Source: Planctomycetaceae bacterium
GTDB taxonomy: Bacteria > Planctomycetota > Planctomycetia > Pirellulales > Pirellulaceae
Direction: 5' to 3'
Length of the DNA: 7,044 bases
Assembly (NCBI GenBank): GCA_002685655.1
Contig: NYXM01000196.1
Coordinates: 1 to 7,044, forward strand
The notes beneath the pieces are model-generated. The model did no database searches. It saw only the letters and a program-made list of their open reading frames with translations, and was not told the DNA's origin. Shown here one piece after another: positions 985 through 6,818 of the stretch. The position numbers and the translations under genes are program-made. The stretch's first letter is position 1; each line of letters starts with the position of its first letter.

Positions 985-2105
985 ACACCCATCACATGCG
1001 AAATACCATCCTGCTCCTCCTGGTCCTGGGCCCAGCTGCCCAGGCTCCGGCCCAGCTCATGCCGCGCGCCAATCTATATTCGAGTTATACCACCAACCTG
1101 TTCCAGAACTACAATCAGCAGGCGGCCTGGATTACCCATGCTTTTATCGACCTCGACCTGGCTCCCAGCCAGGCCCTGAATCTCTACTACACCGGCAGCG
1201 CCAATGTTTTCACCGAGTACGAGGATCTTTTCAGCCACACCCACCGCGCGGGATTGAGTTATGTGCGCCCGGGAGAAGATCTCAACCTTCTGTACGTCGG
1301 CACCGAACTCGCCCTGCGTCTGGACCGTCCGCTCTACGACTACCGCGATTTTCTGCAGGCAGAGGCCTATGCAACGGCCAAGGTCTATCTGAGGCCGACG
1401 TTGCTGTCGCGCACCGGCTATTCCCTGCGCTACCAGGAATACCTGAACGCCGGGGACTACAGTTTTTTCGAGCAGGAGGCCTTTGCCCAGCTCAGCCGCT
1501 TCTTTTCGACCCGGACGACGCTGCAATGGCACGGTGAACTGGGCCTGAAAACCTATGCCCGGAACACCAACACGCTGGCATCGACCGGACCGACCCGGTC
1601 GGGTGGGGACCGCAACCTGGTACAGCTGATGTCTCGCTTCAAGGTAGCTCAGTCCCTGGGCGCCAGTACAGGCCTGCAGCTCGAATACCTCGAGCGCGTT
1701 AACCTGGCCGGGCAGAGCCGCTACACAGTAGAACAGATCTACAATCCGGACGACGATCTCTTCGATGATCGCTACAGCTACGACGGCAACGAATTCAGGA
1801 CCACCCTGAAACACCTCGCACCCTGGGGTCTGCAGGTGGAAATGAGCGGGCGTTCGGAGCGCCGGCGTTACGCCGGACGTCCGGCCCTGGGTTTGGAGGG
1901 CTTCACGCTCGAGTCAGGAGAGACCCGGAGAGATAGCCGCAACAGCCTTTCGCTGGGAGCGGAGAAGTCCCTCTACCTGGAAAGCGAGTGGGTTCAGGAA
2001 ATCCGCCTGCAGCTGGAATGGCTCTACAGCCACATCGACTCCAATGACCTTTATTACCAGACAGATGTCCAGGTGTACTCTACTGGAATCCAGATCGACT
2101 TTTGA
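981..2105 (+). CDS. outer-membrane beta-barrel protein
   Basis: This is a 374-residue protein whose ATG overlaps the upstream stop (ATGA, 981-984), a sign of translational coupling. AGAGGGG precedes it; a second Met six residues in is an alternative start. Residues 7-25 (RNTILLLLVLGPAAQAPAQ) form a Sec signal peptide. The rest is rich in Tyr, aromatic and alternating polar/hydrophobic residues (for example LNLYYTGSANVF, LNLLYVGTEL, YSLRYQEYL, LRLQLEWLYSHI), as in membrane-spanning beta strands. It ends in STGIQIDF, with the C-terminal Phe recognised by the BAM assembly machinery. No plug, TonB box or enzymatic motif is seen, so it may be a porin, an export channel or a structural barrel. It shares the sigma-54 promoter with the Asp-rich protein. 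A small insertion sequence sits 10 bases after its stop and may have separated it from its original terminator. Confidence 0.85.
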   Translation: MNTHHMRNTILLLLVLGPAAQAPAQLMPRANLYSSYTTNLFQNYNQQAAWITHAFIDLDLAPSQALNLYYTGSANVFTEYEDLFSHTHRAGLSYVRPGEDLNLLYVGTELALRLDRPLYDYRDFLQAEAYATAKVYLRPTLLSRTGYSLRYQEYLNAGDYSFFEQEAFAQLSRFFSTRTTLQWHGELGLKTYARNTNTLASTGPTRSGGDRNLVQLMSRFKVAQSLGASTGLQLEYLERVNLAGQSRYTVEQIYNPDDDLFDDRYSYDGNEFRTTLKHLAPWGLQVEMSGRSERRRYAGRPALGLEGFTLESGETRRDSRNSLSLGAEKSLYLESEWVQEIRLQLEWLYSHIDSNDLYYQTDVQVYSTGIQIDF

Positions 2106-2115
2106 AGTACTATGA

Positions 2116-2131
2116 AACCAGTGGTGCTAGT
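2116..2131 (+). repeat. left terminal inverted repeat of the IS982-like element
   Basis: It is 16 bases long and perfectly complementary to 3003-3018. The transposase-gene spacer begins immediately inside it. Confidence 0.93.
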
Positions 2132-2160
2132 GGTTTGACAGCGTCATGAGAATCACTCAT

Positions 2161-2197
2161 CTATCTCTATCGATATCATTTACATTGAGATAGGAGG
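2161..2197 (+). promoter_or_regulatory. hairpin next to the ribosome-binding site of the IS transposase
   Basis: CTATCTC (2161-2167) pairs perfectly with GAGATAG (2187-2193), whose last bases overlap the ribosome-binding site AGGAGG (2192-2197). An RNA reading in from outside the element could fold and mask the site, a known way for insertion sequences to limit activation by neighbouring promoters. A TTGACA-like -35 box lies at 2135-2140, but I see no matching -10. Confidence 0.4.
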
Positions 2198-2204
2198 ATT
2201 CCTC

Positions 2205-3002
2205 ATGACGACCGAATATTTCATGACCGCCTTGTTTGCCCACGTCGATGATCAGTTCAATGAGCAAGGGATCAATGGGAAACATCCCCAAGCGAAACTG
2301 TATGTGAGCGAAATCATCACCCTCGGTCTACTCTTTGCCCTCAAGGGAAGAGGGAATCGAGCCTTCTATCGCTGGTTGAGTCGCGACTATGGGGAACTAT
2401 TTCCCCAACTGCCGACGCGTGCCCGACTCTTCCGCCTGTTGAATACCTATCAAGATCTGACCGACACCTTTAAGGCCGAACCGTCTCTGTTGGGGGTCAT
2501 CGACACCTATGGTATCGAACTGATTCATCCTCGGCGCGAAGGCCGTTCGGAGAAGCAGATCGGGCATAAAGGACGCTCCAACCAACGCTGGATCGTCGGG
2601 GGCAAACTCTGTATTTTGTTGAATAACATTGGTTTAGTGGTGGATTGGGATTGCGATACAGCCAACGTGTATGATGGGAGCGCCTTCCAGGAAATGGTCG
2701 ACGGGGTGGCCGATCAGATGGTCGTTTTCTCGGATGAGGGCTTCGACAAGGTCGACTGGCATCCCCAGAATCTCAAGGTTTGCCAGCGGGGAGAGTGCAA
2801 TTTCCGTATGCTCGTCGAAACCGTTCTCTCGATGCTGACGTATGTGTGCCATTTCAAAAAGGTCATGCATCGCGTCTGGTCGTATTTCAACATGCGGCTC
2901 GGGTTCACCATGGCCTTGTTCAACATCCTGGCGCAGTGGCATGGACTAGAGCCCGATGAGAACGGGTTTGTGCCCCTATCCATCGCCGAATTCAGCCTGT
3001 GA
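2205..3002 (+). CDS. DDE transposase, IS982-like
   Basis: A 265-residue protein with ribosome-binding site AGGAGG at 2192-2197, 7 bases before the ATG. It shows an N-terminal helical region (LYVSEIITLGLLFALKGRGN, about 32-51) like the DNA-binding part of IS982 transposases, then an RNase-H-like catalytic core. Likely acidic triad: D100 (GVIDTYGIEL), D177 (VVFSDEGFD) and E205 (MLVETVLSMLT). The last motif, followed by a basic/aromatic helix (HFKKVMHRVWSYFNMRLGF), is the usual E region. It would cut and rejoin the terminal repeats of its own element. The frame is intact and fills the element from hairpin to right repeat. It is slightly shorter than typical IS982 transposases as I recall them (around 290-310 residues), so the family name is tentative; the transposase call is firm. 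Confidence 0.85.
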   Translation: MTTEYFMTALFAHVDDQFNEQGINGKHPQAKLYVSEIITLGLLFALKGRGNRAFYRWLSRDYGELFPQLPTRARLFRLLNTYQDLTDTFKAEPSLLGVIDTYGIELIHPRREGRSEKQIGHKGRSNQRWIVGGKLCILLNNIGLVVDWDCDTANVYDGSAFQEMVDGVADQMVVFSDEGFDKVDWHPQNLKVCQRGECNFRMLVETVLSMLTYVCHFKKVMHRVWSYFNMRLGFTMALFNILAQWHGLEPDENGFVPLSIAEFSL

Positions 3003-3018
3003 ACTAGCACCACTGGTT
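3003..3018 (-). repeat. right terminal inverted repeat of the IS982-like element
   Basis: Perfect reverse complement of 2116-2131; it begins one base after the transposase stop codon (3000-3002). Confidence 0.93.
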
Positions 3019-3021
3019 ATA

Positions 3022-3034
3022 AAGGGCGCCCCTT
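3022..3034. terminator. weak hairpin at the end of the peptidase gene
   Basis: AAGGG (3022-3026) and CCCTT (3030-3034) flank a 3-base loop and overlap the peptidase stop codon. Read on the minus strand the hairpin is followed only by TAT and not by a long U-run, so it is at best a weak terminator. The neighbouring insertion sequence begins just beyond, at 3018, and may have displaced the rest. Confidence 0.25.
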
Positions 3035-4295
3035 ACCGCTTTCGGTACTTCTGTATGGGCACGGGATCGATCGGCTGAATGTCAACCGGATCCGGGAATG
3101 GCGTGATGATTTTGAGCCGTTTGGCAAGCAAGTTGAGAATGCGGGGATGGAGGACATAGAGATGGCTCTGAGCACGGACCCACATGGCGTTCCAGCCCAC
3201 GTTGCTCGCCCCGTATTCGATCCAAAAATACCCTTCCTCGCCCCAGTCTTCGCCCCAGGAGTTCTTGACCAGCCAGGCGCCCACATCTGTTCCATCTTCC
3301 CAGTAGTCGTCGTTCCAGCCCACAAGGGTGACAGCGTGGTTCGAGGAGCCGGCCAACTGCGCGTTGAAAAGCCCGCCGCCATAGGCAGACAGCAGAGGAC
3401 CCGCCCGGATGCCCACGACCAGAGGACCGTGCTCGCACAGCGCGTCTTTGAGCGTTTCGACGCTGGGAACGGTGTTGTCGGGATCCACAAATCCCCAGGA
3501 CAACATGCGGATTGGCGTGGCTATATCGGCGGGACAGGCGCCGACCGCAGGCACGTAGGGAACATCGTCTTCCTCGGCGACACCATTGGCGACGGCCCAG
3601 TCCAGGACATCCGGCCGGTTTCCACCCCCGCAGTCGATGGCAGGGGAGCAGTTGAGGATATGGCTCTCGGCCGCGTCGTACTCGGTGTTGTTGCGGATCA
3701 GGTGGTTCGCTTCCAGCGCGCCCATCGTGCCAAAGGCCACGCAACTACCGCAGGGATTCTGGTCTTTGACCGGGGTGACTTTGCCTTCATCAGCCCAGCT
3801 GAAATAACTCTGACCAGTATCGCATCCCGTATCGTCGTCGGGAATCACCACGTTGGGGTGTTCCCTGGCGTAGACGTCAAGAGCCCGGCGATCGATTCTG
3901 TACAAATCCAGGGCGAAGTCGTTCTGGTACATCCTTTCCCGGGGGGAGTATTCCGGTTCATCCAGACCCGTCAACTCTATCAGAGGACGCCCGATGACCC
4001 CCGTGGCCACCACCGCGAAGGTCAACTTCTCCGCCACGGCTTTTCTGCGGAGTTTGATCAATTTTGCCTTGGTTTCCGGTCCGACGGACGCCTCCAGTTC
4101 CTCGTAGTTTCTAACAATGATCTCCTTGAGATTTGGCTTTTTCAACATCAACTCTTGCAGTTGCGCTTCGTATTTCTGCTCGACGCTGAGCTTTCTTGAA
4201 CGCGACTGCCTCTCGCCCGGACCTTGGGCCAGACTCGGCAGGGCCAGCACAAAAGTCAATACCGTAAAAAATATAAATTTGCGGGATGTTTCCAT
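3033..4295 (-). CDS. secreted papain-family (C1A) cysteine peptidase
   Basis: The start is taken as the ATG at 4295, with GGGAGGA about 6 bases upstream; the frame extends 16 codons further but without a site. The 420-residue product begins with a Sec signal peptide (METSRKFIFFTVLTFVLALPSLA). A charged helical region of about 130 residues follows, presumably a propeptide but not recognisably the I29 type. The catalytic domain runs from about 157 to 380. It shows PVKDQNPCGSCVAF with oxyanion Gln179 and nucleophile Cys185, SNHAVTLVGWN with His320, and WLVKNSWGEDWGEEGYFWI with Asn345. The usual CGSCWAF has Val in place of Trp. Extra Cys residues (TGCD, NCSPAIDCGGG) fit disulphides of an exported enzyme. 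A Pro-rich basic tail (PFPDPVDIQPIDPVPIQKYRKR) ends it. It hydrolyses peptide bonds outside the cytoplasm. The adjacent upstream gene encodes a predicted inhibitor of exactly this class. Confidence 0.93.
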   Translation of the reverse strand: METSRKFIFFTVLTFVLALPSLAQGPGERQSRSRKLSVEQKYEAQLQELMLKKPNLKEIIVRNYEELEASVGPETKAKLIKLRRKAVAEKLTFAVVATGVIGRPLIELTGLDEPEYSPRERMYQNDFALDLYRIDRRALDVYAREHPNVVIPDDDTGCDTGQSYFSWADEGKVTPVKDQNPCGSCVAFGTMGALEANHLIRNNTEYDAAESHILNCSPAIDCGGGNRPDVLDWAVANGVAEEDDVPYVPAVGACPADIATPIRMLSWGFVDPDNTVPSVETLKDALCEHGPLVVGIRAGPLLSAYGGGLFNAQLAGSSNHAVTLVGWNDDYWEDGTDVGAWLVKNSWGEDWGEEGYFWIEYGASNVGWNAMWVRAQSHLYVLHPRILNLLAKRLKIITPFPDPVDIQPIDPVPIQKYRKR

Positions 4296-4407
4296 GATCT
4301 TCCTCCCTGTGTTGAAGTAGAAGAAAAGACTCTGTGTGAACACTGGCGTTTTCAGACACAGCCGCGACGATTACTCTTTAATCGATCCAAGATTCATCGA
4401 CCACGCC

Positions 4408-4421
4408 GTGATGCGCATCAC
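4408..4421. promoter_or_regulatory. perfect 14-bp palindrome in the peptidase leader, candidate operator
   Basis: GTGATGCGCATCAC is its own reverse complement. It lies at about +31 to +44 from the start of transcription predicted by the promoter at 4458-4486, a position where a bound repressor could block the polymerase. No specific regulator is recognised. The rest of the 170-base gap between inhibitor and peptidase (4296-4465) is the untranslated leader and shows no small gene. Confidence 0.45.
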
Positions 4422-4457
4422 CACTTTCCCCAAACATTTTTTACAGGAAAGCCTCAC

Positions 4458-4486
4458 ATTATAGTTCAAGGCTCCTTGACTGTCAG
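4458..4486 (-). promoter_or_regulatory. sigma-70-type promoter for the peptidase gene
   Basis: On the minus strand, CTGACA (4481-4486, one mismatch to TTGACA) and a perfect TATAAT (4458-4463) are separated by exactly 17 bases. The -35 box lies inside the last codons of the inhibitor gene. Transcription would start near 4451, leaving a leader of about 155 nt before the peptidase ATG. The peptidase can therefore be expressed without the inhibitor, in addition to any read-through. Confidence 0.65.
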
Positions 4487-4897
4487 CCTGTAGGTCTTTG
4501 CCGGGTCGTTCTTCTTCCAGGGACGGACGTAGTGCAGCACGACCACGCTCGAATCGGCCTTCAACGCCACGAAGCGGAAGATCTGGTATTCTGCCCCCCC
4601 TTCCAGTTGGTCTTCCTCTTCCCTGAACTCCGGCTTTTCGTCGAGAAATTCCAGGTGGGTTGTATCGTGCTGGGCGAGCATCCAGCCGTAACCTGTCCCT
4701 GGTTGAGAGACCAGCCGGATGGCGAGACTGTCGTTCCGGGCGAGCTGCACCAGGCTGTTGTTGTCCTTGTCGATTGCGGTTACGAGCTTGGCTTTAGACA
4801 TCGTCGGCTGGCCCTGGGGCGAAGAAGCGCAGGCTAAATAACCCGAGAGCAGGAACGCTATACCATAATAAAGACAATAAAGACTGTGCAAGGGCAT
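4466..4897 (-). CDS. chagasin-family (I42) inhibitor of papain-like cysteine peptidases
   Basis: A 143-residue protein; the ATG at 4897 follows AGGAGGAG by three bases. It opens with a hydrophobic leader ending in YLAC (Cys23), a slightly off-consensus lipobox, so it is either a lipoprotein or a secreted/periplasmic protein. The body carries the three binding loops of chagasin in order. QPGTGYGW (65-72) matches the NPTTGY loop; LEGGAEYQIFRF (98-109) matches the Gly-rich loop followed by a beta strand; and YVRPWKK (124-129) carries the invariant RPW. In the known family these loops wedge into the active site of C1A peptidases. Here a C1A peptidase gene follows 170 bases downstream on the same strand, making it the obvious partner. 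Pro65-66 in QPGTG replaces Asn-Pro with Gln-Pro. Roles could be protecting the producer from its own enzyme or timing its activity; that is inference. Confidence 0.87.
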   Translation of the reverse strand: MPLHSLYCLYYGIAFLLSGYLACASSPQGQPTMSKAKLVTAIDKDNNSLVQLARNDSLAIRLVSQPGTGYGWMLAQHDTTHLEFLDEKPEFREEEDQLEGGAEYQIFRFVALKADSSVVVLHYVRPWKKNDPAKTYRLTVKEP

Positions 4898-4903
4898 GGG
4901 CTC

Positions 4904-4976
4904 CTCCTGATAGTAGACTACGTGCGATAGAGAGGATACAGCAAAGGGATTATCAGGAGCGGTCTATCGCACGTAG
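4904..4976 (-). promoter_or_regulatory. structured leader with possible pseudoknot masking the inhibitor's ribosome-binding site
   Basis: On the transcript, CTACGTGCGATAGA (4976-4963) and TCTATCGCACGTAG (4931-4918) form a perfect 14-bp stem with a 31-nt loop. Inside the loop, CTCCTGATA (4959-4951) is exactly complementary to TATCAGGAG (4912-4904), which includes the inhibitor's ribosome-binding site just 3' of the stem. Loop pairing with downstream sequence is an H-type pseudoknot layout and would block ribosome entry. It resembles no riboswitch family I recognise. The 14-bp repeat could alternatively be a DNA operator. Confidence 0.55.
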
Positions 4977-4993
4977 CTGGAGAAAGAGGATAT

Positions 4994-5068
4994 AGAGGCT
5001 GACCAGAAAAGGAAATTTGTCGGGTTTGGTTTGAGTAGAACCGGATTGGGTCTTTCCGATCAGCCTCT
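4994..5068 (-). promoter_or_regulatory. first leader hairpin of the inhibitor transcript
   Basis: AGAGGCTGA (4994-5002) and TCAGCCTCT (5060-5068) are perfect 9-bp complements, and pairing continues imperfectly inward (the following CCAGAAAAGG faces CTTTCCG). The outer arm begins right at the start of transcription predicted for the promoter at 5076-5104. The transcript would therefore start with this 57-nt-loop hairpin and continue into the ribosome-site-masking structure. Confidence 0.4.
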
Positions 5069-5075
5069 GTTGTAT

Positions 5076-5104
5076 AATATAACAAAGTTGGTTTGACAGG
5101 GCAA
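5076..5104 (-). promoter_or_regulatory. probable promoter of the inhibitor gene
   Basis: On the minus strand, TTGCCC (5099-5104, 4 of 6 to the -35 consensus) and TATATT (5076-5081, 5 of 6 to the -10 consensus) are 17 bases apart. Transcription would start near 5069, giving a leader of about 170 nt that holds both inverted repeats. The 17-bp near-palindrome TGTTGTATAATATAACA overlaps the -10 and might bind a regulator. A second TATAAT on this strand (5109-5114) lacks a good -35. Confidence 0.4.
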
Positions 5105-5161
5105 TTGCATTATAAATGTCCATGCGATAAAACCTTAGCTACACCTTATTCGAAAAGTAAC

Positions 5162-5197
5162 GTTTTTCTGAAAAAACCTGTTTTCTGACGGGAAAAC
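5162..5197. repeat. two tandem small hairpins at the left end of the larger element
   Basis: GTTTTT (5162-5167) pairs with AAAAAC (5172-5177), and GTTTTC (5180-5185) pairs with GAAAAC (5192-5197). Both 5' arms run on into CTGA, so GTTTT(T)CTGA is a near-direct repeat 18 bases apart. Such repeats next to an element end may be transposase-binding sites. Confidence 0.35.
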
Positions 5198-5272
5198 ATA
5201 TGTTCAAAAGTGTCATAACTGGCTAACTTATTTATGAGTTATAGATTCTCAAGAATAGTGAAAGGAACCGTT

Positions 5273-6818
5273 ATGGCACAACCTTTGTTAGACGTTGATG
5301 GGATCGGTGACCCTTTTATTTTAGCCCCTCCAGACACAGAAATGAAGAAAATGCTCGACGATGCGCTGTCGTTGCTGGCGCGTAAGCCGGAAATTCTGCA
5401 CCGCATTTCGGCCGATCAGGATGCTTGGGGCCTGGCGAAGAAGGAACTGCGCCGGGCCGATCAACGCTGGGAAGCCGCGCAGACCCTGCCGCTGCCCGGC
5501 GTGGCCTGGGAAGAGATCGCTTCGATGCGGGCCGAAGCGTGGTCGCTGTTGGACGGTCGTCCTCGCATGCCGGCCGAGGTGGTGTATGTGTTTTCCGTGC
5601 TGCGAGGGTATCTGGGATCGCTCACCGACAAGCAGGTCCAGGATCGCCTGGTGGACTCGACGACGTTGCAGTGGTATCTGCACCAGCGGGGTCTGTGTTT
5701 TCCAGGCTGGAGTACCCTGGTGGAAAATGTCAACGCGATGTCTAACCAGACCCGAAGTTTGGTGCTGGATGCACAACTGGAGATGATTCTGGGGGAAGGG
5801 TTGGATGATTTTTTGGAAGCAATTGTAGACAGCACCGCGGTGGAAGCCAATTCGGCCTGGCCGACCGATGCGCGCATCTTGTTGGGGTTGTTGGAAAGAG
5901 CCTTTCGCCGCAGTCAGCAACTCGATGCGTTCGGTCTGGACAACCTCCCCAAGTGGTGGATGCCGAAGTGGTTGGAGAAACTGGGGAAGCTGCATTTCCG
6001 CATCAACAATGTAGCCGGCCAAGCGCGGTCGAAAGGGAAGTTGAAGAAGTATTACCGTCAATTTCTGCGCACGACGCAGAAGATACTGGAGTATCTGATG
6101 TCGGAATGTGTGGCGCGGGAGCCGCTGGCGGAAGCGGCTTTGTTGCCGCCCAGTCGCCGCTTGTTGTTGGAACGGTTGTGGGAGCGGCTGGTGGGCGATG
6201 TAAGTGATGCGTGTACGGTCTATCAATATACCGAAGAGCGCATCTTTGAAGGGACGGTGTGGCCGGCCGAAGCCAAGAAGCTGAGTTTGGCGGATGAATC
6301 GGCCGCCTTTATCGAAAAGGGCCAACGGGCATCGGTTTTGGGCTACAAACCGCAGTTGGTGCGCTCGGGCCAGGGCTTTGTCACCGCCCTGCAGGTGCCT
6401 CAAGGCAATGCGGCGGATGCCCCCCCAGTTGGTCCCGTTGATCGACGAAGTGCATCAACGTACGGGCGTCTTGCCCAAATGGGTGAGTGTCGATGACGGC
6501 TATGCCTCGGCACAGGGACGGGCCACGCTGCTCGAAGAGGGGGTCGAAGAGGTGTCGATCAGTGGGTCCAAAGGCAAACAGCTCATTCCAGAAGAGGAGT
6601 GGAACAGTGAATTGTATCAACAGCTCCGTCGGGGACGCTCGGCCGTCGAATCGTTGATCTTCGTGCTCAAACATTGTTTTGCCTTTGGACGTCTGCGACG
6701 ACGAGGTTTGGAGGAGGTGCGCGCCGAACTGTTGGAAAAGGTCATCGCCTACAACTTCGTGCGCATGGGCTTGGTGCGGCAGGCGCAGCAAGAAACACCG
6801 CTCAGCAAAGTGGCCTGA
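5273..6818 (+). pseudogene. DDE transposase of the larger element, broken by a single-base frameshift
   Basis: The ATG at 5273 is preferred because AAAGGA (5261-5266) precedes it; the in-frame ATG at 5234 has none. The first frame runs into a 7-C run (6420-6426), after which the protein pattern continues one frame over to TGA at 6816-6818. With six Cs the join would read DAPQLVPLIDE and give a protein of about 514 residues. Recognisable parts are a helical N-terminus with PGWSTLVENVNAMS, a first catalytic Asp at 186 (AIVDSTAVEANSAWPTD), a basic middle (RSKGKLKKYYRQFLRT), then after the shift WVSVDDGYAS (second Asp) and RRGRSAVESLIFVLKH (Glu). This is an IS4/IS5-clade-type DDE enzyme, perhaps of the ISNCY group; the exact family is unsure. 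As sequenced, the product would lack two catalytic residues. A sequencing error or slippage at the C-run is possible. Confidence 0.88.

Follow-up and report, generated by a model that had tools for sequence, protein, structure and literature searches.

The window analysed here, the whole 7,044-nucleotide stretch of contig NYXM01000196.1 from a Planctomycetaceae bacterium, carries a gene for a papain-like (C1A) peptidase next to a gene for a predicted chagasin-type (I42) inhibitor, as an earlier note made from the sequence alone had pointed out. The question it raises is whether the two products belong together as an enzyme and its own inhibitor, or whether two unrelated genes simply lie side by side. 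The role of bacterial chagasins was termed not yet elucidated in 2016 (PMC5014320), and in the literature searched, which mostly excludes subscription papers, we recognised no description of bacterial C1A/I42 gene pairs. (Papers are cited by PMC number, and what is attributed to each comes from excerpts of it.) A recurrent and correlated C1A/I42 pair would give bacterial chagasins a specific and testable candidate target in the same cell, and it would add an exported, possibly membrane-tethered version to the bacterial peptidase/inhibitor operons. What is reported here is two known families forming a recurrent pair; the logic of such pairs is already known from other families.

Layout of the locus

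The open frames agree with the coordinates, the strand and the 170-base spacing that the earlier note had given for the two genes. The features of the locus are as follows.

4466..4897, minus strand: I42 gene, encoding the chagasin-family inhibitor P0002 (143 aa; ATG at 4897, stop ends at 4466)
4832..4897, minus strand: hydrophobic export signal of P0002, then Cys23 (YLAC), a possible lipoprotein signal (by eye)
4682..4705, minus strand: I42 loop 1, QPGTGYGW (residues 65-72); P66, T68, G69 and W72 invariant in 56 aligned I42 proteins
4595..4600, minus strand: I42 Gly-rich loop, G100-G101 of EGG (residues 99-101); G100 at least 90% conserved in the 56 aligned proteins
4517..4525, minus strand: I42 loop RPW (residues 125-127); R125, P126 and W127 each at least 90% conserved in the 56 aligned proteins
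4458..4486, minus strand: sigma70-like promoter CTGACA-17-TATAAT (11/12), at the end of the I42 gene
3033..4295, minus strand: C1A peptidase zymogen gene, encoding P0001 (420 aa; ATG at 4295, stop ends at 3033)
4227..4295, minus strand: signal peptide of P0001, METSRKFIFFTVLTFVLALPSLA, with no cysteine (by eye; clear)
3819..4217, minus strand: helical prodomain, residues about 27-159 (borders by eye)
3162..3818, minus strand: mature C1A catalytic domain, with the codons of Cys185 at 3741-3743, His320 at 3336-3338 and Asn345 at 3261-3263

The two genes are contiguous on the minus strand, the arrangement expected of a peptidase/inhibitor operon, with 170 bp from the I42 stop to the C1 ATG. Shine-Dalgarno matches precede both ATGs, and no terminator-like site was found on the minus strand in 2000-5240. 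The promoter-like site at 4458..4486 could drive transcription of the C1 gene separately and so uncouple the two genes; five promoter-like sites occur in the region where 2.1 are expected (sd 1.3), so this one is weak evidence.

The peptidase

Both profile searches that the earlier note had proposed gave matches above the cut-off, P0001 with Peptidase_C1 (PF00112; E 2.1e-41, 142.8 bits against a cut-off of 20.7) and P0002 with Inhibitor_I42 (PF09394; E 3.5e-16, 59.7 bits against a cut-off of 27.2), and NCBIfam named neither protein above a cut-off. The catalytic set read earlier in the peptidase (Gln179, Cys185, His320 and Asn345) is correctly numbered, and all four residues are invariant in 21 of 21 aligned C1 sequences (alignment A1). 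The AF2 model of P0001 (pLDDT 84) has a predicted papain fold, and among solved sequences P0001 comes nearest to cathepsin L-like and related C1 enzymes. The prodomain has no PF08246 match at E up to 1, and its model aligns with pro-cathepsin propeptides, in a fold search whose list was filled by mature enzymes and pro-enzymes and which barely probed residues 1-63.

The protein collection holds a close relative of P0001, P0004, at 93-95%. Papain's Trp after the catalytic Cys is replaced by Val in P0001 (CGSCVAFG, 3720-3761), and this Val is also found in P0004 and in the paired peptidase of genome G115 (L056 10275-11396). Short C1A peptidases are common across bacteria and have frequently moved horizontally (PMC10380794).

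The inhibitor

All three binding loops that had been read in the upstream gene are present (QPGTGYGW, EGG and RPW) and conserved across the 56 I42 proteins. Compared with the canonical motifs, which PMC5014320 names NPTTG, GxGG and RPW, the first two are variants in P0002 (QPGTG for NPTTG and EGG for GxGG) and RPW is exact; the loop 1 form Q-P-G-T-G-Y, in which Gly replaces the first Thr, is an NPTTG variant common to a subfamily. The predicted structure of P0002 has the Ig-like chagasin fold, and its nearest solved sequence is the P. aeruginosa ICP (2wgn, E 1.2e-7). A close relative in the protein collection is P0003 (64-65%), and among the 120 I42 relatives listed the nearest that carry an organism name are from Acidobacteriota (42%) and Blastocatellia (39%). 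Solved structures show chagasins bound to, and blocking, the C1 enzymes papain, cathepsin L, cathepsin B and falcipain-2 (PMC7863939), and by analogy with these complexes P0002 would be expected to inhibit through its three loops.

We also note two related G001-phylum genomes in which I42 forms the C-terminal part of a longer protein (L075 7448-8347 and L077 8020-8928); in both, the gene adjoins a C1 gene of the same orientation. Proteins with two and three I42 domains in tandem occur in G875 (L132 and L169) and in G895 (L137 and L171), with no C1 in the flanks fetched around these loci.

Export and possible lipid anchoring

The export signals that the earlier note had seen on both proteins hold up, the C1 signal peptide being clear and the I42 N-terminus hydrophobic by eye; the reading of Cys23 as a possible lipoprotein signal is absent from that note. 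Cys23 is conserved in the 64% homologue P0003, there in a strict lipobox (LSAC), and the automatic lipobox rule left P0002 itself (SGYLAC) unflagged. By a simple rule, a Cys ends the hydrophobic stretch in 41 of 56 I42 sequences versus 1 of 21 C1 sequences, and strict lipoboxes are found in 12/56 I42 versus 0/21 C1 sequences (alignment A1). Such a Cys closes the stretch in nine of the 11 inhibitors of the G892 phylum. In most putative lipoboxes of the pairs the Cys follows R, T, M or I, which is unusual; the inhibitors of G965, G966 and G209 have no such Cys, and the G209 peptidase shows a lipobox-like LAAC. Judged by these N-termini many I42 inhibitors are likely to be lipidated.

Among the pairs whose N-termini were read, both partners have an export-type N-terminus by eye, the exception being G115, in which both lack one; the predicted compartments of the two partners thus agree. 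The start finder gave implausible I42 starts for G892, G938, G939 and G952, and N-termini were read by eye from the open frames. An NCBIfam scan of six peptidases detected type IX sorting tails (TIGR04183) on the paired peptidases of G118 and G323, which are therefore probably sent out of the cell, and none on P0001, on the peptidases of G892 and G209 or on the G927 fragment.

Recurrence of the gene pair

Searches of whole genomes for I42 gave 6 of 132 genomes in the phylum of G007 (which holds L007, titled Zixiibacteriota), 24 of 386 relatives of G006 (including the first 193, with 10), 21 of 398 in the phylum of G001, and 4/7, 1/3, 13/82 and 1/3 in the phyla of G209, G323, G892 and G203, respectively; those of G209, G323 and G892 were picked because these genomes already showed the pair. 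Removal of overlaps left 65 I42 genomes, whose I42 flanks (up to 8 kb per side, shorter at contig ends) were scanned for C1 with a profile built from P0001 homologues. Places in L065 and L086 had been dropped beforehand from the I42 seed of the custom HMM.

Of the 65 genomes, 18 have a C1 gene no more than 2.5 kb from I42. Thirteen of these pairs have the order found in the window, I42 then C1 on one strand (G209, G323, G892, G938, G939, G966, G965, G982, G964, G969, G972, G952 and G927), four have the opposite order on one strand, with C1 first (G115, G731 and the near-identical G517 and G389), and in one, G118, the genes are convergent. The flanks fetched from the other 47 genomes, several of them cut by contig ends, contain no C1. 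A chance test covered the 37 I42 genomes of the G007 phylum, the 193 G006 relatives and the G001 phylum, 21 of which have any C1; 0.11 I42 loci with a C1 at up to 2.5 kb would be expected by chance, and six were observed (five if the sisters G517 and G389 are counted once). The adjacency of C1 and I42 in the window is more than chance.

The phylum of G892 has the window arrangement in 11 of its 13 I42 genomes, the selecting genome G892 included, and the exceptions are G955 (no C1 in 16.4 kb) and G968 (contig ends 120 bp past I42 on the relevant side). The eleven pairs are not independent and represent eight lineages, between which identity is 29-65% for C1 and 26-46% for I42. Many flanking frames match only between sisters (G892/G939, G939/G938 and G966/G965); matches between lineages are few, mostly C1 shadow frames and isolated 26-44% frames at differing positions. 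The two genes thus keep to each other as the sequence around them changes.

Seen from the C1 side, a search of the 386 genomes with the P0001-family alignment A1 returned G892 as second-best (E 5.5e-77), with an I42 gene directly upstream. When the best locus from each of 30 genomes in this search was examined, 28 of the 30 C1 loci had no I42 in flanks of up to 1.5 kb, and those of G892 and G731 had one. G203, which has the nearest C1 among the 386 genomes, carries its single I42 on another contig. An A1 match is present in 17/24 I42 genomes versus 98/362 genomes without I42 (Fisher p 2e-5, kinship uncorrected); G202, among these 17, lacks a PF00112 match. A scan of genome contigs with C1 gave seven distant loci, and plasmid searches gave six distant C1 matches, no I42 match and no DNA match. 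The earlier note had called for a check of co-occurrence in related genomes, and the outcome is an association beyond chance that is confined to some lineages.

Correlated descent

Trees were built from 34 C1 rows and 43 I42 rows. Fourteen of the 18 adjacent pairs are represented in them; G938 (truncated), G731, G517 and G389 were left out. In both trees nine pairs from the G892 phylum form one group (C1 99/98, I42 96/91). G927, of the same phylum, groups in both with G323 of another phylum instead (C1 100/100, I42 94/87), which suggests either that the pair moved as a unit or that this is an old paralogous pair. The window C1 falls in a 20-row group with the C1 of G203 (95/92), and the window I42 in a 15-row group with the I42 of G203 (97/97).

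The C1 and I42 distance matrices are correlated, with rho 0.71 (p 3e-4) over 16 genomes (the 14 pairs, G203 and the window), 0.67 (p 6e-4) after removal of two sisters and 0.51 (p 0.016) for eight divergent genomes. The grouping of G115 with G209 is well supported in the C1 tree only; in the I42 tree these two have long branches, and the node that joins them with P0163 has weak support (85/88). Part of the agreement between the trees, and of the co-occurrence, comes from common ancestry.

A proposed mechanism and its alternatives

With a probability of roughly three in four, we take the two genes to encode a cognate pair, in which the prodomain acts as a brake in cis and an exported I42 protein, probably lipid-anchored at Cys23, plugs peptidase that has matured early. 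Both family assignments, both predicted folds, the recurrent neighbourhood and the correlated descent come from computation, and the export-type N-termini were read from the sequence; from these we infer lipid anchoring, binding of I42 to its paired peptidase and a purpose of self-protection. The earlier note's view of a functional pair is supported in part, by the I42 profile match and by a genomic association that holds in some lineages only.

In the mechanism proposed, the peptidase would be exported as a zymogen, with its cathepsin-like prodomain as the first brake. The I42 protein would be exported too and probably held in the cell envelope through a lipid on Cys23, and there its three loops would serve as a second brake, in trans, by plugging the active-site cleft of peptidase that matures before leaving the cell. 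The I42 gene comes first in 13 of the 18 pairs and in the window, so the inhibitor would be made first from a joint message; the promoter-like site at 4458..4486 could add separate transcription of the peptidase.

We offer more tentatively the possibility that C1A/I42 pairs are an effector/immunity-like cassette that crosses phyla as a unit, in which a membrane-anchored chagasin would provide immunity to a released or surface peptidase; this would be the native job of many bacterial chagasins, and free-standing, outward-aimed ones like Cip1 would be derived from them. It draws on the type IX sorting tails found in two of the six peptidases tested.

It is unlikely that the inhibitor is aimed outward, at peptidases of a host, predator or neighbour, with the C1 enzyme as a separate tool of the same lifestyle. 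P. syringae Cip1, an inhibitor of plant C1A enzymes from a genus where C1A is missing from most genomes (PMC5014320), is a precedent, and 16 of the 31 I42 genomes scanned likewise have no C1 match. However, an outward target sits poorly with I42 and C1 relationships that correlate across phyla and with a pair that outlasts its flanks, and an inhibitor that is tethered, if it is, would be poorly placed to meet external enzymes.

We doubt even more that the inhibitor acts as a chaperone in the folding or sorting of the peptidase, or buffers several C1 enzymes of the cell in a general way, and is no dedicated safeguard. The presence of several C1 genes in some I42 genomes (5-10 in the six of the G007 phylum) and the leading position of I42 in 13 of 18 pairs would suit such a role, but all three inhibitory loops are kept and the C1 protein has a prodomain of its own, predicted to be like those of pro-cathepsins. 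The cathepsin prodomain assists the folding of cathepsins. Finally, adjacency in the window alone proves nothing and insertion sequences bound the locus, but with six pairs found against 0.11 expected and 11 of 13 in one phylum it is very improbable that two unrelated genes for exported proteins merely happen to be neighbours.

Comparison with known systems

The cognate pair that we favour resembles several systems in part. Protealysin and emfourin, a bacterial M4 metallopeptidase and its inhibitor encoded in one operon, share the operon logic of the window and differ from its pair in that the enzyme is a metallopeptidase and intracellular. The closest analogue in both logic and place is the set of Bacteroides C10/inhibitor pairs. 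In Btp/Bti and Bfp/Bfi, as in our reading of the window, an exported papain-fold zymogen is accompanied by a small exported inhibitor (there of predicted beta structure); the C10 peptidases are transcriptionally coupled to their staphostatin-like inhibitors, and two of the three Bti inhibitors are predicted lipoproteins (PMC3462683). The families are different, C10 and staphostatin-like there and C1A and chagasin (I42) here, and the Bacteroides peptidases are predicted lipoproteins too (PMC3462683), whereas the peptidase of the window has a plain signal peptide.

The earlier note had likened the pair to staphopain and staphostatin, and this analogy stands for the logic and fails for the place. 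Staphopain/staphostatin (C47/I57) and SpeB/Spi genes are contiguous, co-transcribed and concerned with self-protection (PMC3462683, on staphopains), and the window genes are contiguous as well. The staphostatin and Spi inhibitors are thought to be cytoplasmic (PMC3462683), and I57 inhibitors are characterised as cytoplasmic with no export signal, whereas P0002 has an export-type N-terminus and may be lipid-anchored. Cytoplasmic action of the staphostatin type was rejected because of the export-type N-termini, read by eye, on P0002 and most paired I42 proteins. The fold and the substrate-like binding of staphostatins also differ from those of chagasin (PMC7863939).

T. cruzi chagasin and cruzipain, and the protozoan ICPs, involve the same two families, with I42 controlling an endogenous enzyme (PMC5014320); the protozoan chagasins are described in that source as having no signal peptide, unlike P0002. 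Pseudomonas Cip1 and the P. aeruginosa ICP (2wgn) are exported bacterial I42 proteins, as is P0002 by our reading. Cip1 inhibits papain with a Ki of 3.98 nM and acts on plant proteases in a genus in which most genomes lack C1A, unlike the window (PMC5014320). According to PMC2784779, chagasins are regarded as the natural inhibitors of C1 enzymes in prokaryotes, and the experimental proof at its date was limited to P. aeruginosa chagasin acting on a eukaryotic enzyme. PMC12620975 mentions, without gene context, a chagasin-like protein from Bacillus cereus.

Flanking elements of the window

The pair lies between two mobile elements. On the peptidase side is an IS982-like element (2116-3018; score under the model's cut-off) with perfect 16-bp inverted ends, the right one 14 bp from the peptidase stop codon, and the C1 gene is left intact. 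On the other side an ISNCY-like transposase (5234-6818) is split into two overlapping frames (5234-6496 and 6294-6818) whose junction is close to a stretch of seven C at 6420-6426; this element is interrupted or frameshifted. The transposase families matched by the two flanking elements are different, and on this ground a simple composite transposon around the C1 and I42 genes was rejected. A further gene pair with an ATGA overlap occupies 442-2105; its first gene encodes acidic D-x-D-G-type repeats, and its second has no match in Pfam or NCBIfam. A tRNA search of the window found none.

Immediately upstream of the inhibitor start are two hairpin-forming inverted repeats, at 4918-4976 (14 bp, perfect) and 4994-5068 (16 nt, 88%). 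Rfam gave no match at its gathering score in the window, these hairpins included. The minus strand of the hairpin region (4905-5085) folds at -53 kcal/mol (z -6.1), and the hairpins may represent leader elements, operators or what is left of small mobile elements.
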